Translations under genes and position numbers: made by a program | Origin: Spirogloea muscicola | Taxonomy: Eukaryota > Streptophyta > Zygnematophyceae > Spirogloeales > Spirogloeaceae | Length of the DNA stretch: 30,275 nucleotides | Direction: 5' to 3' | Assembly (NCBI GenBank): GCA_009602725.1 | Contig: WELB01000058.1 | Span: 229,993 to 260,267, forward strand | Notes under the pieces: generated by a model | The model's database searches: none | Told to the model about the DNA's origin: nothing | Seen by the model: the letters and a program-made list of their open reading frames with translations, nothing else | In this document: positions 7,836 to 28,000 of the stretch, piece by piece | Numbering within the stretch: the first letter of the stretch is position 1 | Layout of the letters: each line of letters opens with the position of its first letter

Positions 7836-10800
7836 ATGGCTCCCTCGTTTCACCTCCCCCTCTCGCCAACGCGGCCTAGCGCCTGCNGCTCTGCTGCTCG
7901 GCCTTGCATCGCTCGCCATCCCCGCGGCGGCGGCTCGCAGCCCCGCCGGCGCCGTCGCGCCGGAGTTCCGGACCTGCCGGCTCGCCACCACGACGACGTT
8001 CGTGGGCGGCGAGCGCGTGACGGGCCCGCGGCCGCACGAGGCCATGGCGGTGCGCGACCTGCCCGAGGCCTGGTTCTGGGGCAACGTCAGCGGCGTGAAC
8101 TACCTCACCGAGATCAAGAACCAGCACATCCCCCAATACTGGTGCCGATCACCGCAACTCCAGAGCCCGCCTTCCCCTCGCGGCGCGCTCCAGCTCTCAG
8201 CGGCTGGCTGGCCCGCTCTCGCGCGTCCAGAGACGCTCGCTGTGCAGCCTTATCAAGCCCATCTGTAGCCCTCGAGGTTCTGTCGCTTGCATTTGCGGCT
8301 TGGTTCAGTTGCTCTGATGCTGGTCTCCTCAAGCAGGACATGCCGAGGCCCGTAGCCGTCGCGGGCCTGGTCAAGCGTCTGACCAGCCAGATTGTCGTAA
8401 GCTTTCTCTCTGGCGTGCTCGTACCCACGAGCTCCTCACCTGCGGCTCTGTGTATCACACGGATCGTGCTGGGCTTTCGGGACTGCCACAGCCATGTCGG
8501 ACCGTATAAAGATCCAGCGCAAGGCGGCCTGGCCGGAGGTCATACTGTCGACCCAGGTGGGTATAGGCAGCTCGGTGGACTTCCTGTCGCTGTTGGGGGC
8601 ATACGCTAAGATTGGCAGCCTTGCTGCTGAAGGCAGACTTTGCTCCGTCGTGGACAGCAATATGAGACGGCTGACGGAGACACCAAGCTTTTGTGCTGCT
8701 TCCTCTGCAGGTCCTTGTTAACTGCGCAGATGAGGGAAGCTGCATGGGAGGTAGCCCGTATAGCGTGTACCCTTACATGGCGGCCCATGGACTACCGGAT
8801 GAGACGTGCCAGAACTACGAGGCTGTTGACGGCGAGTGCGCTCCGTATGGCATCTGCGAGACGTGCAGCCCCGGGCAGGCGCCCAACCCCTTCCTGCCGG
8901 GCACCTGCAACACGGTCAAGAACTTCACCATCTATGGTCTGAAGCAGTATGGCCATGTGCTTGGCGGTAAGACCCTGCATACAGCTGGCGTTGGCAAAAG
9001 CTCAATGACCAGCAAATCTAGTGTTAAGGAATGTTGCCTCCTCGTGCGGGCTGTCTTATGGAGGTTCGGCAGTGTCAACATTAGCGCTGGCCTTGCATAA
9101 TAGAAGCAAACCCCTTGCGTTTGCTCACACCACAGCAACACTGCAGAGTTGTAGAGCATTTGTGCAAGGCAGGGCTTGAAGCAACTTGGCCTGAGGCAGA
9201 CCTCCTTGGGTATACTTAGTAGGGGGGAAGGAGGGGAGGGCACTGTGACAGGTGTTTGTAGATTTTCTGGCAAGGAGTCCGTTGTGCAATAGAGCCTTAC
9301 CTGCGTGGTCACACAGCAGAGGAATATGAGCCTTTCCATTGCTTTTTGGCGCAGGTGCCAATGTTGATGCCAATGGTTTCTTCGTCAAACGATCAGACAA
9401 GATCAAAGGTGCGCTTAGGCACCTCTACCTTCACCACATACAGTGCTCAAAGTTGCACTGAGAGACTTATACTGCAGTTTGTTGAGCACGTCAATATTGT
9501 ATAAAGGGGAATTCTTGATGTTATTTGTTTGCAGCTGAGATCTACAAGCGCGGCCCTATTGGGTGCGGCATCCATGTCACGGACAAAGTCTGGCACCACT
9601 ACAGCAGCGGCATCTTCCAGCAGTGGACGCCTGTCCCGCTACCCAACCACGAGCTCTCTCTTGTCGGATGGGGCGTTGACAAAGCAACTGGCATGGAGTA
9701 CTGGATAGGAAGGAACTCTTGGGGAACCTACTGGTATGAGAAGTACTTAAGCTGCTCCTGTCTGAGCCAGGTGACTGTCAACATTCATTGAAGGATTGCA
9801 GCAGGCCTTTGAGTCTCGCTCTCATATACACCAATGTTGTTCCCATGGCAGGGGCGAGAACGGCTTCTTCAAGATCAGGATGCACAAGCACAACCTGGGC
9901 GTTGAGTATTTCTGCAACTGGGGGGTGCCAGACTTTCGCGGAGTTCCTTCGACTAACCACCCCAAGTCGCTGCGACCAGCGAAGAAGCTCGTTCCGGGAA
10001 GCGTGAATGTTTTGCAGAGTGTGGCTGATGAAGCTGAGCCTGTCGAGATTGGCAATGCACCCTCAGTGGACTTCGATGAAGACTCTCGACGAGTGCCCAA
10101 GGGCTACTACCACTCGTACGAGCAGTCCTGCTTGAAGCGCGGCTCTCAGGTATACCACATATTGTGCATAGCAGAGCTCTTGGTGAGCAGACTCAGGCTG
10201 ATCTGCGGTGCACCATCATCCAAATTCAATGACAGAATTGCTCACACCTTTTACCTGCAATTTGCATCATCCCACACCGTTCTGAAGTCCGTTCTGTGGT
10301 GGTCTTGCAAGTTCTTCAAGGATGGAATTGCCTTCTCCACTGCTGGTTACCCCCCGTTGGAAGAGTTGCCGGAGTCTTACGACATCCGCAACATCAGTGG
10401 GAGGAACCTTGCCACTCTCAACCGCAACCAGCATATACCGCAGTACTGTGGCTCATGCTGGACTATGGCCACCTCCTCCGCGTTGGCCGACCGCATCAAC
10501 CTTGCTCGGAATGATACTTTTCCTGAGATCAACCTTGCCCCACAGGTATGTAATGTGACATAGCATCTCGAGTAGATCACTAGGTCCTGACGCACTGTCG
10601 GTTCTAGCCGCACCTCTGGAGCCTGCACTAGTCACTGGCCCATCTCAGCCGCCGTGTGTCTTTCATTTGACTGCACTCATAACCGCAGCTACCACCAGTC
10701 GTTTGATCAATCTATAAGATAGGGCAGAGCAGCCATAGGCTGGTCCTGCATTGCAAGCAGGCGGCTTTCATGATGCTCAATGAGGCCAGTGGAGTGCGTG

Positions 10801-12659
10801 CACCGAAGATAATATTATAATGGTCGAAGCCATGAAGCAATGGTTCTTCAAGGAGAACCATTGAAGAGTCATGCACATGCGGCTGGCTATTGCTGATGGC
10901 CGTAAGCGGTGGTAGGACTGTGTTGTGTGCCAAGAGCAGCGCCTGAGAGAAAAGTGCTCTGCCTGTCTGCCATCCAGGTGCTGGTCAACTGTGTGAAGGG
11001 CATGGGGAGCAATGGGTGCAGCGGCGGGGAGCCCTATGCAGTATATGATTGGGTGAGTTGAAGCTTAACTTGCATAGCATCAGCATTATAGAACGTCCAG
11101 AGCCTTGCAGGTGCTGGGAAGATTTGTGCTGACTTTCTTTCCAGTTGTGACAAGAATTTTCTGGTAATGATTGTCAGTTGAAAGACAATGGCCTACCTGA
11201 TGACTCGTGTGCCAACTACGAGGTAGGCACTTCCTTGGCCATTATTGGTTTTTCTGCCTCTCGATGTTGGTCCATCTACCTCCCAACTATGCTTAGCTGT
11301 TCAGACTTATGGTGGTTCCCTCCTTAATAAATGTCTGTGAAGCAGTTGGGTATGATGTGCTGCATCCATGCCTTTGAGTCTCTGTGTTACATCGTTATGC
11401 AGGCGAAGGACAAGGAATGCAATGCTATCAACACCTGCACTAATTGTGATCCTATGAGAGGTTGCTTCGCTGTTGAAGTAAGTTGACAAGGACTTAATGT
11501 AGAGGACAGATGTCCTCTACATGCTCTCTCTTTCACAGAGGACGTATTTAAGGGTGCCCTTTGTCGCTGTTTTGAGAGTTTGGATTCACGAAGGCAGGGA
11601 GAGCAGTCTCGATGGGATTATGCTTGGCAGTCAGCAGTGCCAAGGCACTAAAGGATATTTTTTTTGCATATGCATCTGTTGTGCAGGAGTATGTGAAGTA
11701 CTATGTTGCTGAGCACGGCAAGGTCAAGGGAGAAGCAAACATGATGGCCGAGGTACTTTCAAGCACCCCAAATAAACCAATCAAGATCTGCGGTCGGACT
11801 TGTGGTGGCTAGATGGCCATGCTTTCAAGGGGGGGTGACATTCGCTGCTCTGAAGTGGCTCACTTAGCTCTTGCCATGCAGATCGCGACCAGAGGTCCCA
11901 TATCCTGCGGCATGTGCGTGACTGAGGATTTTGAGAATTACAAGTACGTAGACTCTTTACGAGGATGGACTTCGGCAGGTTCATTAGGCTTCCCTCAAAG
12001 GCATGCATTTCCATCAAGAACATGCTCTCACGCCTTAGCAGTCTGCCAGGTCTATGTCATGTTTGCTTACGTGCATCTCATTGTGCAGGGGCGGTGTTTT
12101 TGTGGACACGACTGGCTGTACGGCTGAGATGCATGCTATCTCGATCGCCGGGTATGGGCAGACTGAGGACGGGACCAAGTATTGGATTGCGCGAAATTCC
12201 TGGGGAAGCTACTGGTCTGTCCTCGCTTTAGCAACTTCGAGAATATGTGATGTATAATTGGGTCCAAAGCATTTCCTTGTAGCTAGGCCGCAGCAGCTAC
12301 TCATCTGTTGTTATTCGTGATCTCATGCTCATTACCACTTCCCAGGTTTTGTGGCCCCTGGACTTGTTGAGGCTAGCATCGCATATTTCTCTGAACTCGT
12401 GAAACTTGCTAAGTAGTTGCTTACAAAAGTGGCAGCAACAACATGGTGGTCATCGTTCTAGGAGTAGACTGGTGGCTTGCTGCCTATCTGCTATGCTAGG
12501 ATCATCTGTCCATGTACTTAAGAGGGCTCAGCAGTTCTCGTGCTGGGCCTCTGTTGCAGGGGCGAAGGTGGATGGTTCAGGATCATCCGAGGGGACGACA
12601 ATCTTGGCATCGAGGAGAATTGCGATTGGGCTGTCCCAAAGAAGACTTGGTTAGATTAA
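7836..12659 (+). CDS. Double-headed cathepsin X/Z-like cysteine protease (two papain C1 domains), 14 exons
   Basis: Exons: 7836-8141, 8460-8556, 8711-8966, 9355-9408, 9535-9733, 9852-10149, 10312-10545, 10978-11052, 11178-11222, 11403-11477, 11687-11752, 11882-11943, 12089-12214, 12560-12659; about 663 aa if the N at 7887 is surplus. A signal peptide (ALLLGLASLAIPAAAA) is followed by domain 1 (about 45-332): the cathepsin X mini-loop NQHIPQYC, catalytic Cys105 in GSCW, His276 and Asn298 (RNSWG). Exon 6 then reads from the domain 1 C-terminus through a ~70-residue acidic linker into domain 2 (about 404-663): NQHIPQYCGSCW with Cys452, His604 and Asn625. HIP is the cathepsin X hallmark linked to carboxypeptidase activity, so both heads look active. 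The protein is probably secretory or vacuolar. Oddities: the N at 7887 breaks the frame between ATG and signal peptide, and intron 1 lacks an AG before 8460. Post-translational cleavage into two enzymes is possible. Confidence 0.9.
7887..7887. other. Ambiguous base that breaks the protease frame
   Basis: The only N noticed in the window. The ATG at 7836 and the hydrophobic signal peptide are in different frames as written. Leaving out this one position joins them, so it probably marks an assembly error and not an unknown base. Confidence 0.75.
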
Positions 12660-13513
12660 GAGGCCACCCCTCATCATGATCATCTCAGGGTCCTTGGGAC
12701 AGTAGGACAGCAATGTATTCATTGCCATCTCAAAGCAGGAGTAGCTTGTATATATGATTGCTGCTGCTGTGGGCATGCCTAGACGGTTTGTTCCTCAATG
12801 TCCTCGGACATCATTCAGATTATTAAACAGACTTGGGCTGAAAGTTGTGCAGTGGACGCCCCCAGGAATGTCCTTGATTGTTGTGTTCAAGCAGGAAGTA
12901 GGGAAAAGAAGGCCGTAAGTACCCCTGGGACAGAAGTAGATCTGTTATTTCCTCCATGAGCTCTCTGCACTTCTATTATTAGCCACTTCTGACAAGGTCC
13001 ACTCACACGTCACACGTCCCAGTGCTAAGCAAATGAGGACTAGTGGTGGTACCCCTAGGCAAAGGCTTGTGTATGCTGAAGCTCAGTAGTATCATCGACA
13101 TCCTTGCTAGCAACGGCTGCTAGATTGATTCACATGGTGCACTATACGATACGCTCCCAAGACAGCAATGGTGCAACTTAGCAACGTTTTGCACAATTGG
13201 TGTACGGATAACCGAGGGCTTACACACTGGCCACACTCATTTACTCATTCTAAGCGCCAGATAACACACTGGATCTAATGCTGATGCCATCATGACCTCC
13301 TTTGCTTGCCCTATAAGGGTGTTATGTCAAGATAGTGTACAATTGCCATTGCCCTTCATGCGGGCATCGGTGGCATCCAGGATAAGCACAAATGAAGTGT
13401 AACGGATGAGGGGTGCAATTGCAACCCCTACTCTCGGACGTTGCGAGATCAAGGCCAGCTAAGCCTCAGCAAAGGAAGGCTCCAGCTTTGATTTGAATTA
13501 CCTGCAACTTTGT
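12660..13513. other. Convergent spacer between the protease and GT77 genes
   Basis: The 3' ends of the two neighbouring genes face each other here. The sequence is unremarkable and AT-richer than the exons. No further gene or repeat array was recognised. Confidence 0.5.
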
Positions 13514-16500
13514 CTAGGCCAGGCTTTTGTTGGGTGTCTCGGTCTGTTTCATCTCTGAGGTCGCATTGGTGAGCAAGGAGGTTGCTGGCCTTACTTCACC
13601 GGCAGCTACTGCCAGTGGAGTTTCACGGGGCTTTACGAATTTGCCATCGCCCCAATCTACATTCTTAGCAAAAAGGTGCCAAGGGTGGATGCACATGCGG
13701 CCCACCATGTCATATCGCCAGAACCCATTCAGCTTCAAGCGGTCAATCTTCGCATCCAGGCCCTTGATCCAGTTGTTGTGCAGGACTTTGCAGCCCCTCC
13801 GTTGGCATTCTTGAAACACGTTCTTGGAGTTCCATATCTATAAAGCGCAAGATTTGTAGGGACTTGTCAGTCCCTGCAGAAAGGTTAGATGTCTAGAGGT
13901 GGCATGCATTTGAAGCTCCTACTTTTCACATGATCTGATGCTAGATTGGAGTAGTCACCTCGCCCACAGCACCATTGGGGTACTCTTTGCTGCTGAGGAA
14001 GACGACTTTGAAGCCGTCCTTATTTGTGCACCCATCATTCCCAACTTTCAGCTCTCCGGCCTTCCCACAGAGTACATCATAGAAGCTTGGCTGCTCCGAA
14101 AGCGGCGACTTGCTGGCATCCGCCACCACTGCCTCCAGAGCTTTGATAGTCTTTGGATCTGATCTTGCTATGTAGAATCCAGAGTTGATACGCCTGAGAC
14201 CATTGCTGGCCAGAGTGTGGTTTGGTTCATTGCTCTGGAGGAGGAATACAAGGTATCAGTCTTCCTCGACTCGAATATCATAATCATATCGGCCAGACAC
14301 CACTTCCTTGACAAGCCAATGGCAAGTCAGTCGCATATTACACACCGTATTGCTGCAATGGATGTCCATCAACTGAATAATGACCTTGACACAATCATAA
14401 GCATGCAGTACCTGGATAGCCAAGACCCCAGGGCCATATTTCATGAGGTCCGGGAGGGGATTTGTAAACCAAACAACATCCACATCACTCCAGAGAACTG
14501 AAAACCCTGCCTTCAGAACCTTGAGAACTGCTCGAGACTTCAACTTGGTAGCTGAGCGAAAGCACGCAGAATTGAATTCGCACTCTCCAGAAGTCTTTGA
14601 ACCATCACCAACGTCTTTGTCGTAGTATACAGGTAACCCCTGCAGGAAGAAGAAGACACATCACAAGGACAAGGGCCTGAAAGAGTTGGTCAAGGCGTGC
14701 AGATGATGCTCGTGACACAGCACTTGGCACGCAATCAAGCTCCTCCAATGATGGTTCAGCTTGTCAGAGCAGCTGGCATGTTGCTCAGGGGGCACATCTG
14801 CAGAAGACTGATGATACCACCTTCTTGCTGCACAGAGCTTGTGAGTAAGCTAAGAAAGTGACACAGATCTGAGAAGTCCATGTTCTGAGCATACACTTCA
14901 GCATGAACTGGCCTTACCTGAGCAAAGGCAAATTTGTACAAGTCCACATCAAGGGCCACCACAAGGTAGTTGGTGACTTGCAGGCTTTGTAGCCGGCACA
15001 CAAAGTTGATGAGGAGGTCTCTGTAGGCATATGTAACACCTATAAGGATCACGACCTTGTCCTCGTTTGCCACCTGGCCAACAAGAAGGTGCCAACATGG
15101 TGACTCCGCTTTCAGGAGGCTCAGGAGGGAATAAGTGGTCCGGCCTAGCATCCATTGCAGCCCTTGCTCACTGAGACCCAGGATGAAATCTGCCAAGCTG
15201 TAGGCATTTTCGATGGGCAAATCTACCTGTTCAAGAAGGTGAGGCATCGTGTGGGGCAGGCCGGGGAAAGAATCCTTCTTGGGGGTGGCCTCGATCTCGT
15301 AGAGTTTCTCAGAGCTCATCGCCCCACACTTGAATGTTCTGTTATCTTTCATCAGACTTGGATCGTTCTGGCAGTCATTACAAGAACAGGGGTGTCAGGA
15401 CTAGATAGGAGACTCGAGAGGTTATCAGGTCCACATACCGCGCAGATTATCGTTGACAGGATTCTTGGGACGAAATGTCATTAATGTAGCTGCATGTACC
15501 TAACAGATGTCCTGGACGTTGATGTCTAAGTTATTGGGGTAGCGACAAAGCCCTAGCCTCGAAGGCCAGCCATGTTACTGCAGGGAGCATCTCCTGATGA
15601 TTGCTGCAAGGGCTGCTTGCCACTGACCTGTGTCTTCAGAGCGTAGTTGCTGGCCTCGCAACTGCAGACCCCGAGCCTCTTGCGCTTGATCAGGCACAAG
15701 TTGCCCTCTAGCGGCGCAAAGCAGCTCATAAGCCTCCAGGGGCAGTGGAACGCCGTGCCGAGCTGGTTGCGGAAGGTACCCCCCGACGTTTGCGACAGGT
15801 GCACGTTCAAAAAGGCCTCCCATGTCCGGGCTTTATTGGCTGACCAAAAGTTGGTGCCCTTCGCCGCACCAGCAGCACCTTTGTTGGCCTCCATCATGTA
15901 TCTACATCAGACAGACGCTGGCACAGTGAGCGAACAAGGTAAACAAACCGCACAGTACATAGGTTAATTGCAGACGTAGCAACCAGTTTTACCAACCACT
16001 TTGCAGAGCTGAAACTTGCTGCAGAAACCACTTGAAACACTTTCATGGTTGCCATTTGTTCTGACCCCTAAACCCCTAATCCGATCTTGAGATCCTAGTG
16101 CATCGGGAAGATGGCCACTCAAGAATGGCCACTCACTCATACGAATGTTCCACATGGACATTTGTGGCGGTATCTGTAGAATCAACGACCTCCCGGTACC
16201 CAGACTCCACAGTCTCGTGAATTATCCAATTGTCATATCGCCCTCGCGCGTATGCATAAGGAGGCATTGGAATATTGTGTAGGGGCACGCCAGGCGCATT
16301 ATTCCATGCCCAGAAGTCGAGGCCGCCGTATGTGTGCAGTGTCCCATTGGTCTTAACGTAGTGCGCAACATCTTGCTCCGTGGCTACAGTGCCATTCTTA
16401 TGAAGAAGCGGAGCTCCAGGTGCTTGATATGTGAAAGGGAAGTCCTTGCCAAGGTCCCACCGCATGGATGTGAGCAGCCAATTGCGGTAGCTGTTGGCAA

Positions 16501-17704
16501 CCTAGAAGCAGTCCAGAACAGTGAAACTACATCAGCTGAGCTGTAACAGCTGTTTGCAAGCTTTGGTGTGACACCTTGTGATCCGCGTTTGCACCAATAT
16601 CACAGGGATGATACTGAACCCTTGCGTCCTCCGTCAAAGACCAGGCGCAAGCCCTTCGAGCAGACGCTGACCTTATAGATGGTGGGCATGATATCACCGA
16701 GGAGAAGAATGTCGGCATTGATGAGTAGCGACACATCAGTGTCAGCAGCCAGGGCTCTGGCTAAGAGCGAGTGGAAAAGTGGGAGGCCGCGGAAGTTGCT
16801 GTCAATGTGTGGGTCCACAGTGATCCTCCCAGGAAAATCCTTGGCGACGGTGTAAAGGGAGGGGTGGCTGCCGAGAAGGACGATCTTGACTGGCGGCTCC
16901 AGCCTCAGATAGGAGAGCAGGGCTCTCTTGCTTCCATCATCCGGGCTATCCGTGTACTCCTTGGGGGCGCAGAAGATGGTGATAGTGGGCTGGTGCAACT
17001 GGCCCTGGTTCAGCACAAAGTCGCCTTATAAGATTTAGAGGCCCGATTGCAGTGCAACCTGGCCCCTGGAGCAGCAGAAGGGGCTACAATTGCTGGAAGG
17101 TATGCGGCCTGAATAGCTGGTGCGCTTCTCTGGCAGTGCTCAGAAAATCAACTCAACTCAAGCCAATGCCCCTGCAACACGACTTAGTGGTGCAGCTGCT
17201 ACGGCAAGCTAATGCAAGACTGAGTCCCTCATCCCCAAAAGGCGCAACCCCTGGTAATCCACAAGATGAACTATGTGACATTCAGCACCGTTCCTGGCGA
17301 CCAGGGACCATCTATTCCGAGACCTTCCTTAAGCAGGTGTTGAAAGGCCGCACCTCAATCTCCACCACCCCCCTATCCCGGCTGTACATGAAGATGCGCT
17401 TGGCGTGGGCAGCAGCTTCTCCGGCACTCACGACGAGGTACTCCACATCGAAGACCACTGCCAAGAGGCAGGGTTCTTTCAGATGTCAGGGACGAGATGA
17501 GAGGATCAGGAATGAAGGAGCAAAGCGGCCATGCGGACAGCACGCCCCCACGGCTTGCTGCCACAGCCTGCTGCTCGAGCGGGACAACTGAGCCCCCTGA
17601 AGGGGGCGGGGCTCACCGGTGAAGGCGGCGAAGACGAGCAGGGCGAGAGCCGCGACGGCGGCGGCACGGCCCTTGCCGCTGCGGAGGACCTTGCCGGCGG
17701 TCAT
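13514..17704 (-). CDS. GT77-type glycosyltransferase, RAY1-like, type II membrane protein
   Basis: Exons in coding order: 17704-17617, 17457-17324, a short exon near 17083-17059, 17024-16672, 16501-16137, 15901-15628, 15328-15227, 15073-14918, 14639-14412, 14234-13959, 13837-13514; about 768-774 aa. A hydrophobic signal anchor at residues 14-28 suggests Golgi residence. The first module carries PTITIFCAPK, then VDPHIDSNFRGLPLFHSLLARA, then INADILLLGD and later YAYARGRYDNWIIHE. The second is the nucleotide-diphospho-sugar transferase domain: YAYRDLLINFVCRL, TNYLVVALD, SVLWSDVDVVW (DVD near 545-547), INSGFYIARS, YPNGAV, VLHNNW. This two-module layout matches plant RAY1-like proteins of GT77, whose relatives add arabinose or xylose to cell-wall glycoproteins and pectin. 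The exact sugar is unknown. Exons 2 and 3 cannot join in phase directly, so an intervening exon of 7 nt (17059-17065) or 25 nt (17059-17083) is needed. Confidence 0.85.
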
Positions 17705-17758
17705 CCTCGCGGGCGCAGAGGGCGCGGCAGGCGGCGGCCGCCGTCAGCAGCTGCCGCG

Positions 17759-17790
<32 letters not shown>

Positions 17791-17795
17791 GGGGA
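17759..17795. repeat. CGG trinucleotide tract upstream of the GT77 gene
   Basis: A GGC/CGG run with one GGT interruption lies 55-90 bases upstream of the GT77 start codon, probably in its 5' untranslated region. Confidence 0.75.
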
Positions 17796-17938
17796 GGCGC
17801 TGCCGCGGCGGGCACCATGATGGTGGAGTTGGCCGGCTCGTTCCTACCTTCCCCGCCGACACCACCCCCCAACTCGACGGTGGCCCGTCGGGCTGACGGC
17901 TGACGGCCATCCCATCTGAATAAAAGCATCGTAATATG

Positions 17939-17982
17939 GTGACTGTTTGACAACAGTCACAGTAGCCGGCCTCCCAGCCGGC
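17939..17982. other. Perfect 9-bp hairpin followed by a GCCGGC pair
   Basis: gtgactgtt (17939-17947) and aacagtcac (17952-17960) are exact inverted repeats around a tgac loop. Just after, gccggc occurs at 17965-17970 and again at 17977-17982. The element is about 240 bases upstream of the GT77 start. It could be a regulatory or mobile-element end; its role is unknown. Confidence 0.6.
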
Positions 17983-18089
17983 AGGGGGATAGTTTTCCGG
18001 CAGCTAGTCTGTCGGATCTGCGGCTTCTTACTCGTAGCTACTGAGTGATCCATCCTCCCCCTGTGCTGACATGACACCTTCAGGCACCT

Positions 18090-18850
18090 CTGTAGCTGCT
18101 AAACGCTTGTCCCTTCTGAACCCTTGTCAATTCTTTTTGGGCTGGCTTATCACAGCCCTTGCCCCCATTTGGAGTGCCACTTCTTCTCCCCAGCCCACCC
18201 GGGCAGGTGCGCTGCTGACGGCTGACGGCCGGCTGGCCAGTCGCCGGGCCAGATGGCGGCAGCAGAGCGGGGGCGGCCCGGGGGGGCGGCCCCGACAACA
18301 GGGGACATTGAGCACCCAGTCACCACTTGAGTGGTCATGTGCTCTAGTGCTTTTCTGGCTTTGTCCATTCCTTTCGGGCTGGCTCTCACAGCCACCAAGT
18401 CAATCTGGCCGCGCTTCTTTTTCTGGCCCCTTGGAAGTGTGTTCTCGGTGCACCTCTGGGCTGGCCAGTCACAGCCACCGCCCTCTGCTGAGCTCTCAAA
18501 ACACAGCTGCGCACCAGGTGCCGGAATGGTTGCACTTTGCGTGCGGGCCACCTGGAGCCGGCCAGCATGGCGTCCAGCGTGGCAGGGCCCCGGCCCGACG
18601 ACCAAAGGCCACATTTTCCCACAGGTCAGCCCACTGAGAGATGGCCGCTCTGACGATGCGGCAGTTGGCCGGCTCTGGCCAACCCATCACCCGGCGCACG
18701 CTGATCCTCCGGGGTCGACGAGGGTCCACGGCGTCCGGCGAGCCCCTGGAGATAGCCAGTTTTGAGACGGCGCTTCTGGCCCCTTCGTAGTTTGGCCCCT
18801 TCGAACCTTGTCACGTCTTTTCGGGCTGGCTTCTCACAGCAATTGCCTCC
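18090..18850 (+). repeat. Second hairpin-repeat cluster, part 1, plus orientation
   Basis: Copies of gggctggc...cacagcc occur at 18139-18158 (a perfect GGGCTG/CAGCCC stem), 18376-18393, 18458-18476 and 18823-18840. The leader at 18090-18138, with gtagctgctaaacgcttgt, recurs at 20236. The doubled string gctgacggctgacggc occurs near 17890 and 18215. Open frames cross these copies in different frames, which argues against coding. Confidence 0.75.
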
Positions 18851-25021: not shown

Positions 25022-28000
25022 TCACACCATCTCCAAGACTTTTATGTTGCCCATGCTGTTGGCGGCCACCAGCGTCTGCGTCTTGCCCCGCCAGCACACG
25101 CTAGACACGAACTGGCCACTGTCGTCCTCAGTCTCAGTCCCCGTAACAGGATCCGCGCCACCGAATTTGTGGGAGGCCATTGGCATCGGCAGCGACTTGT
25201 GATATGCAAAGTCCTGCAAATGAAGCGGCGTCTCATCAGAATACGACACGAAGTCAGTTCCCGATGCCGCTAGCCGAGCAATGCAAGCGAGCCCAAGTAG
25301 CGAATCAGGGTAGGTGTGTAATGCACCCAACAAAGATCGTATAATGAGCCCAGCGCACCAGCTCATCACCAGGGCTGTACAAAGATCTCAGCTACAAGGT
25401 ACATCGTCAACTAAACTGCAAAGAGTCAGCTCACCGCGTTTGTCTCTGAGCCGCAGGCAATGTAGCCATCTGCCACTGAAAGTCCCACAAAATTCTGCGC
25501 AACCAGGTTCTACAGTCAGACACCACGACGGCTAGCATGTCCAACTCAGGTCACCTAATATAACATGCTTTGGCCCCTACAGACACAGCCACACAATATT
25601 ACAAGGAGCATATTTGACAAAGGTATGAGTAGAATGCATACAGCAAGATCATTAGATGTCAAGGGATATCAAGGGTGGTCTTCGCTGCAGGCAGGAGAAA
25701 GATCAGCACCTTCTCATTGGTGTGCCCTGTGTACGTGAGCGATGGCGACGTGGACAGCCCACTATGCTGCTGGTGGGTGACTTGAGTGAGGTCCCAGAGC
25801 TTGAGCGTGTTGTCGGTGGACGCCGACACCAGCGTGCCAGCGTCCACAAACTTGACGTAGCTCACCGCCTTCTGGTGGCCGGACAGCACTGCCAATGGCA
25901 CCTTGGCGTTCCTCAAGTCATAGCAGTATACCTTGTAGTCTGCCGATCCAAATGCGAGGAGATGCGACGACTCCATTGGGAATTGTACGCAGCACACATT
26001 AGCTTTTGTCCTGATTGTTGCCACACTTGCCTCCTGCTCATTGGTCAAACAAAGGCAGGAAGTGTTATTCTGATTCAACACCATTCTCAACCATACAAGG
26101 ACAGCAGGTTTCTGTGCTTTGCGCACAGGCAGACGCTCATGAGACATGAGATAGTATTGCAAGAGCTAAACTGCAGCAGGCCTTCCCACATAAGTAGATT
26201 CCTGCATGGTAGGTAAAAATCTAAAAGAGCAGGACATTACCTGGGAGATGGACCAGAGCTTCACAGAGCCATCATCGGAACCAGACGCTAGGCGGGTAGG
26301 GTCCGCACGGCTGAAGTCCACGCTCCACGCCCGCTTCTCGTGCTCCTCGTACTCAATCACCGGTTGCGACGTGGATGCATCCCACAGCTGCCAGTCACAA
26401 CCAGAGTCAGTGAGACTTACAACACAAGTTGCTGCACTTCAGGAGACATCTCGTTAACTGCCTGCAACTGACTGCAACCACAAGCCAAGGCGTTGACTAC
26501 AGCAAAAGGAAGGAGCTCCAGAATACCCCAAAGCCCAGAAACTGTGAATGGACCAATAGTGGCCCTTGACAATAACTCAAAGTTGATAAGAGCTCCAGTA
26601 ATTGACAATGCCAGTTGAAACGAAACTGATGGCCAATCTGTGATGCTGCCTGCTGCTCCTGAAAATTATACCTGGACGACGCCTTCGTAGTCTGAAGAAG
26701 CCATGTGGGACTTGATGTACGAGTTCCAGCAAACAGAGGAGAGCTTGGAGCGAGATGCCATCTCAACGACCAGATAGTGGATGTCGACGGCCTCCCCAAG
26801 CACGGCATCTGCCTCGAAAATCTTGATGCGCTTGCACACGCCCGCGGTCGCAAAGAACTCCTCGTCGCGGTCGAATGCAAGCGAACACACCATGTTGGCA
26901 GTGTTGAGCAGGTCCCCGTGGCGCAGCGTTGCCCGTACCTCGAACCGGCTGTACCGCGCAAACTTGCACAGGGAGTCGAAGAAGCAGCCGAGCCAATCCT
27001 TGTCGCTGCTGCTCGCGTGCGGCGCCAGGCCCGCACCCCGCGCGCCCGCTGCAGCTGCAGGGCCTGGAGGCGCCAGGTCTGCTGCTGGCGGCTGCAGCTG
27101 AGACACGAGGCTGCTGTGCGAGCCGGGGCCGTCTGAGCCCAACGTGGGTTGTAGCAGCAACGGCTGTCCTGCTGTCGCGGCCGCTGGTGCGGCGGTCCCA
27201 GCTGCCGCCCCAATGGCTGCCGCTTCCGCTGGCTCTGCCGGCCCCAGCTTCCAGCGCATGGCAAAGTATATGCGCTCGAGGTTGTCGAAGTTGCTCATCA
27301 CCCGGGCGCTCCGCGACGACAGGCTGCCGTCCCCCAGCCGCCGCCGCTGCGCCGAGCTCCGCTCTCGGTCGTGGTGGCCGTCACTGTCCGCATCGCTGCT
27401 GGCCGCATTGTCGACCCCGGCCTCCGGCCTAGATCGCTTGCCCAGAAGATTCCCTGGACGGCGGTCCACGGCAGCCGCAACGGGCATGACGGCAGCGGTG
27501 GCGGACACGGTGGCAGTAGCTGGAGATGCGAGGCCATCACCCTCCGCACAGTTCTCGTCCTCGCTCGAATGGCCGGCCTCCGGGCGGAGCCGGTCGCGGC
27601 TGGCTGCGCCGGCGGCGCCTGTGCATGCGCGCAGCAGGGCCTGCCGCCGGACCACCTCCCCGATGTCAAAAGTCAGCCGCTCGACGTCAGCCGCCAGGCG
27701 CTGCGTGGACGCGGCCTTGGATGCGTGCATGTGCTGCAAGAAGTCGAGCAGCACAGACGCCTCGCTCTCCTGCTCCTCCGCCTCCACCACCGCTTGCCGC
27801 TCAGCCAGCGCCTCCTCGGCCTCGCCCAGCAGGTCGCTCTCCAGTACCTCCCTGGCAGCACCAATTGCCTCCAAGTTAGCAGAAATTTAGCAACAAACAG
27901 CTGACTGTGCTCCGTCAATCAATCACATACTGACACAGGCTGTGGAGACAACTCACTGCATCTTGGGGCGCGATGTGGGCTGCGGGTGGAGCAGCCACAG

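Follow-up and report, generated by a model that had tools for sequence, protein, structure and literature searches.

Two cathepsin X/Z-like domains in one predicted polypeptide of the alga Spirogloea muscicola

Can two complete cathepsin X/Z domains be made as one polypeptide, and, if so, do they stay joined? The question is raised by contig WELB01000058.1 of the Spirogloea muscicola assembly GCA_009602725.1, of which we analyzed positions 229,993 to 260,267 of the forward strand, a stretch of 30,275 nt that we call the window. The cathepsin gene under study lies at window positions 7836-12659 on the plus strand. Our genome-wide searches covered the assembly of 153 Mb in 471 contigs, in which the window contig is C58. 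The plastid PsaB of the assembly scores best against PDB chains 8htu, 9lut, 6l35 and 7ksq (1623-1627 bits), of which 8htu, 6l35 and 7ksq are from moss, and clearly lower against 6zzx of Chlorella (1524 bits) and 6ijj of Chlamydomonas (1519 bits), as would suit a streptophyte alga, probably close to land plants. The original prediction was that two complete cathepsin X/Z-like domains are fused here in one polypeptide, and this proved sound: the frame is open, both halves have procathepsin X (1deu) as their best match, and a second gene copy, L001, has the same layout. We consider it very likely that the locus is a single-gene fusion, and we think that its product is probably a precursor, from which cleavage releases two different carboxypeptidases.

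We began from the identity of the two domains, hereafter head 1 and head 2. A domain scan of the predicted joined protein with Pfam found two Peptidase_C1 stretches (305.7 bits). When the halves were compared with PDB sequences, the top match of both was procathepsin X 1deu, at 236.8 bits (3e-69) for the head 1 half and 238.7 bits (8.1e-70) for the head 2 half. Among the best 60 of 174 sequences, molecules not named cathepsin X scored 123.5 bits or less. The next-best molecule for both halves was dipeptidyl peptidase I, or cathepsin C (1jqp, 3pdf), an exopeptidase of the same family with a much weaker score (123.5 bits for head 1 and 121.1 bits for head 2). Cathepsin C is an aminodipeptidase with an exclusion domain and is not a tandem protein. 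As predicted, the HIP mini-loop between the oxyanion Gln and the catalytic Cys is present in both heads (NQHIPQYCGSCW; 8125-8133 in head 1 and 10432-10440 in head 2), and both keep the catalytic Cys, His and Asn (8467-8469, 9648-9650 and 9714-9716 in head 1; 10456-10458, 12132-12134 and 12195-12197 in head 2). A Cys was also found in each of two propeptide-like stretches. Taken together, we conclude that each head is, by its sequence, an ordinary cathepsin X and would be expected to act as a carboxypeptidase, whereas the whole protein, with two catalytic domains in one frame and not one per chain, is a tandem variant and not a standard member. NCBIfam returned no family for either head. A search of prokaryote genome contigs with a four-head alignment found 20 loci with 22-38% identity, which we take to be distant papain-family proteins, and a search of viral contigs with head 2 gave five pattern matches, none of which was confirmed.

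To build the gene model, both heads were read against cathepsin X on the genomic DNA. The model has 14 exons, from 7836 or 7888 to 12659, which encode two cathepsin X/Z zymogen units in the same frame. From 7960 to the stop codon (12657-12659) the coding part amounts to 619 residues, and we estimate a full-length product of about 68 kDa. All 13 introns have a GT donor, and 12 of the 13 have an AG acceptor. Exon 1 (7836-8141) contains a candidate ATG at 7836 and, after a single N at 7887, a signal-peptide-like stretch; propeptide 1 (7960-8058) and the first part of head 1, mini-loop included, are also in this exon. The Cys of propeptide 1 (7975-7977) aligns with that of propeptide 2 (10129-10131, in exon 6) and is a candidate tether to the active-site Cys. 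Head 1 continues through exon 2 (8460-8556), which carries the active-site Cys, exon 3 (8711-8966), exon 4 (9355-9408), which covers an insertion absent from head 2 and from the human enzyme, and exon 5 (9535-9733), which carries the catalytic His and Asn. Exon 6 was predicted to extend from 9852 to 10149 without a stop from the C-terminus of the first domain toward the second, and we found the same; it holds the head 1 C-terminus (to about 9936), a 50-residue spacer (9937-10086) and the first 21 residues of propeptide 2, and its length is equal in L001. Intron 6 (10150-10320; GT-AG, 171 nt) follows. Exon 7 (10321-10545) then supplies the remainder of propeptide 2 (to 10365) and the N-terminus of head 2, including its mini-loop and active-site Cys. 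The rest of head 2 is divided among exons 8 (10978-11052), 9 (11178-11222), 10 (11403-11477), 11 (11687-11752), 12 (11882-11943), 13 (12089-12214, with the catalytic His and Asn) and 14 (12560-12659, with the C-terminus and the stop codon). The frame thus runs without a stop across the linker and joins the end of head 1 to head 2.

An open frame alone is weak evidence for fusion, because 122 of 2,600 80-codon windows in the joined introns of the window copy are open as well. Stronger evidence came from L001, a diverged second gene on contig C142 that was found by whole-genome protein search. L001 is 88.8% identical to window 8439-13488, with the same layout and all 13 intron positions shared. 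Exons 2-13 are of equal length, exon 14 has 100 bases in both copies by the shared stop, and both have 1,860 coding bases from the position of 7960 to the stop, with no frameshift and no internal stop. Because the second copy agrees in its 13 introns, its exon 2-13 lengths and its coding length, chance or artefact is a very unlikely source of the arrangement. When exon 1 and intron 1 are left out, the copies are 96.5% identical in exons 2-14 (1,619/1,678) without indels and 88.1% identical in introns 2-13 (2,164/2,456) with 47 indels. The 258 coding bases of the spacer and propeptide 2 differ at 13 sites against an expectation of 30.7 from the intron rate (Poisson P 2.7e-4), and have no indels against an expectation of 4.9 (P 0.007). 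We conclude that the linker evolves as coding sequence. Between the copies, counting from 7960 and leaving out the upstream part of exon 1 owing to the N bases, dN/dS was 0.11 in head 1 and 0.07 in head 2; the spacer with propeptide 2 gave 0.36, a value resting on 13 changes. With both heads so strongly constrained, we ruled out that either of them is decayed.

Window 16001-17960, at least 3.3 kb downstream of the gene, also matches C142 at 89%, and we therefore think that the copies occupy corresponding parts of two related chromosomes or subgenomes. As a separate observation, several papain-family (PF00112) loci seem, from their tabulated matches, to be present as two or three similar copies on different contigs (for example C162/C106/C10, C29/C64/C19, C68/C120 and C16/C14), which suggests a polyploid or multi-subgenome assembly. 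A genome triplication, which we take Spirogloea muscicola to have undergone, would fit such numbers of papain-family copies.

What, then, lies between the heads? The original prediction described an acidic linker. This holds for the last 23 residues of the spacer, which have eight acidic and no basic residues, but not for all 50, in which eight acidic residues are accompanied by five basic ones, and the next 36 residues (10087-10149 and 10321-10365) are likely to be head 2's own propeptide. The short propeptide of human cathepsin X is held to the active site through a disulfide and comes off in maturation (PMC13257197). Given this behaviour and the Cys within the 36-residue stretch, we read the region between the heads as a spacer followed by a second propeptide.

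The chain would then have the layout of one preproprotein: signal peptide, propeptide 1, head 1, the 50-residue spacer, propeptide 2 and head 2. A single signal peptide would give one entry into the secretory or vacuolar route, and each head would fold as its own zymogen with its own propeptide. The Cys of each propeptide is likely to keep the active-site Cys blocked, in the manner of human cathepsin X. The propeptides could then be cut by an endopeptidase resembling cathepsin L or legumain. The cut at propeptide 2 would also separate the heads, yielding two different carboxypeptidases in equal amounts, and the tail left on head 1 could be trimmed by carboxypeptidase action.

Several observations weigh against this precursor model. 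Cleavage of the linker is, like secretion, the disulfide tethers and carboxypeptidase activity, something that we infer. Propeptide 2 aligns with propeptide 1 at the Cys and at little else, and near the C-terminus both heads are eight residues shorter than the human enzyme. The gene model, which was built from genomic sequence alone, has two blemishes in its first part. In the window copy, intron 1 ends ..CACA|CGG (8456-8462), without an AG acceptor, just upstream of the head 1 active-site Cys; either the assembly is wrong here or the splice site is damaged, which would leave head 1 of this copy poorly spliced. In L001, the same intron ends ..GCAG|CGG (L001 2154-2160), and L001 introns 2-13 also end in AG. 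Further, the lone N at 7887 parts the frame of the candidate ATG from that of propeptide 1 and head 1. The gene start that was predicted at 7836 is therefore a candidate only, and it is out of frame with head 1 if the N counts as one base. The L001 frame is likewise broken at a single N (position 1725). Each sequence has exactly one N (in 30,275 bases of the window and in 7,501 bases of L001), both in the GC-rich signal-peptide stretch, and the signal peptide was read by eye because the frame is broken there in both copies. Finally, if intron 6 were retained in L001, a stop inside the intron would leave a product of head 1 and linker only.

The alternative that survives best is a lasting double-headed enzyme, in which the heads stay joined by the spacer as a built-in dimer, a one-chain equivalent of the human homodimer, perhaps with different substrate preferences. 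Human cathepsin X has been reported as an active homodimer (PMC13257197; PMC10380794), 129 of the 235 aligned sites are not identical between the heads, head 1 has two insertions, and the layout is kept in both copies while a search of this genome by the mini-loop pattern found no single-headed gene. Nevertheless, we regard a lasting double head as doubtful, and as less likely than a cut precursor, because, with propeptide 2 placed between the heads, maturation of head 2 in the human style requires a cut there, which would sever the chain. In addition, the dN/dS of the spacer and propeptide 2 is higher than that of either head, as would be expected of a part that is removed, although the value depends on 13 changes. 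Of the original idea of a double-headed protease, one polypeptide with two heads therefore stands, and of the outcomes it allowed for the heads, cleavage in the linker is the one that the position of propeptide 2 favours.

In the mature part, head 1 and head 2 are identical at 106 of 235 sites (45.1%), head 1 and human cathepsin X at 110 of 232 (47.4%), and head 2 and human cathepsin X at 108 of 232 (46.6%). The heads therefore resemble the animal enzyme at least as much as they resemble each other. A recent internal duplication is thus unsupported, although a younger duplication followed by fast divergence would give the same picture. The three-way alignment of 232 columns has 27 columns in which only the heads agree, 31 in which only head 1 and human agree and 29 in which only head 2 and human agree; from this near-star pattern the order of the splits cannot be told. 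The same alignment places two insertions in head 1. Two intron positions are common to the heads in column and phase, out of five in head 1 and seven in head 2 (P 0.0008 under random placement, in a hand-adjusted alignment and with the caveat that intron sites are not placed at random). The shared introns fit the duplication of an intron-bearing gene, though they may also predate the duplication.

The search for a single-headed gene used a degenerate DNA pattern that covers QHIPQY and two further bases, those that open the codon after it. The pattern matched the genome four times, twice in C58 and twice in C142; a reversed control pattern had no match. By this mini-loop pattern, no single-headed cathepsin X was found in the genome, although one could be concealed by a gap, by an altered codon or by an intron within the motif. 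Protein-search matches outside the window gene and L001 had 49% identity or less. For lack of a single-headed gene, cathepsin X activity in this alga may come from the tandem form alone. A further extension would be an ancient covalent pair, whose heads have come to differ from one another as much as each differs from human cathepsin X. Such a pair would have taken the place of the single-headed form in this algal lineage and would work as an obligate heterodimer with two specificities; we consider this rather unlikely.

Could the gene instead give a mixed output, in which intron 6 is spliced to make the two-headed protein and retained to make a one-headed product, at least from L001? Intron 6 is 171 nt in both copies. 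Read in frame, that of the window copy contains no stop and that of L001 contains one, so that the fusion in L001 depends on removal of the intron. Its GT and AG ends are conserved in both copies, however, it has changed at the pace of the other introns (145 identical sites among 170 aligned), and nothing shows that a retained form is used. We consider a mixed output improbable.

A slightly poorer candidate is a pair of adjacent genes with separate transcripts that seem fused since no stop falls between them. The frequency of open intron windows given above leaves room for this, and the acceptor of intron 6 ends in AAG, whereas introns 2-5 and 7-13 end in CAG. Against two genes, the only in-frame Met codons of exons 6-7 are at 9880, inside head 1, and at 10465, after the active-site Cys of head 2, and L001 has them at the same two places. 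A separate start for the second half, which the original prediction had named as a sign of two adjacent genes, is therefore unlikely. We also considered an out-of-frame ATG at 10322, which is open to the end of exon 7 but is in the wrong frame and has no L001 counterpart. Moreover, the region that joins the heads changes in the way of coding DNA and has no indels, and intron 6 interrupts propeptide 2 at a conserved donor and a conserved acceptor. With head 2 lacking an in-frame start in either copy and a coding-like linker, we rejected two separate genes; the rejection of chance openness depends on L001. Last, an assembly artefact that joined two unlinked cathepsin X genes, to which the N at 7887 and the intron 1 without AG might point, is contradicted by the diverged copy of the same layout on another contig and is extremely improbable.

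We also compared the protein with known systems. Human cathepsin X/Z (1deu, 1ef7), presumably C01.013 in MEROPS, resembles each head in its Peptidase_C1 domain, in HIP next to the oxyanion Gln, in the Cys, His and Asn, in a short Cys-bearing propeptide-like stretch, and in 46.6-47.4% identity over the mature part. The human enzyme has one head per chain and the alga, known here from its DNA, has two; the shorter C-terminal region of the algal heads and the extra insertions of head 1 are further differences. The human precursor has 303 residues with one catalytic domain, and cathepsin X/Z is characterized by a 14-residue C-terminal insertion and an 8-residue central insertion (PMC13257197). The same source describes cathepsin X as a single-domain carboxypeptidase able to form homodimers, and the enzyme occurs widely among eukaryotes (PMC10380794).

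Proteins with tandem C1 domains are probably known already: a 2023 survey includes "C1 domain duplication" in its list of forces in the evolution of the C1A family (Table 4 of PMC10380794). Those proteins resemble the algal one in having more than one C1 domain, and they differ in that the accessible part of the survey includes no cathepsin X case. Nor did we find a tandem cathepsin X in the accessible parts of the open-licence literature on tandem or two-headed cathepsins, on cathepsin X/Z or on papain-like proteases in algae. The new part is the tandem precursor, which is an unusual arrangement of a well-known enzyme and not a new kind of enzyme. If the model is correct, one precursor with two diverged heads offers a natural test of whether it matters that heads are paired, and of the way in which a zymogen becomes active if its propeptide doubles as a linker.

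Elsewhere in the window, Rfam and ARAGORN scans gave no matches. A 212-codon open frame on the minus strand (14756-15394) looks protein-coding by eye; it had no Pfam match at E 0.01, and we take its resemblance to be to plant glycosyltransferases. Also on the minus strand, 25659-27886 holds pieces of a gene for a COP1-type WD40 protein (COP1, PDB 7vgg_A, 8.1e-33; WD40 repeats), which is possibly SPA-like. Finally, window 17980-18190 is an interspersed repeat of about 210 bp. Many contigs carry it: at least 38 matches were strong, with 89-94% identity and E 1e-75 or better, a lower bound from scoring 40 of 4,576 candidates.

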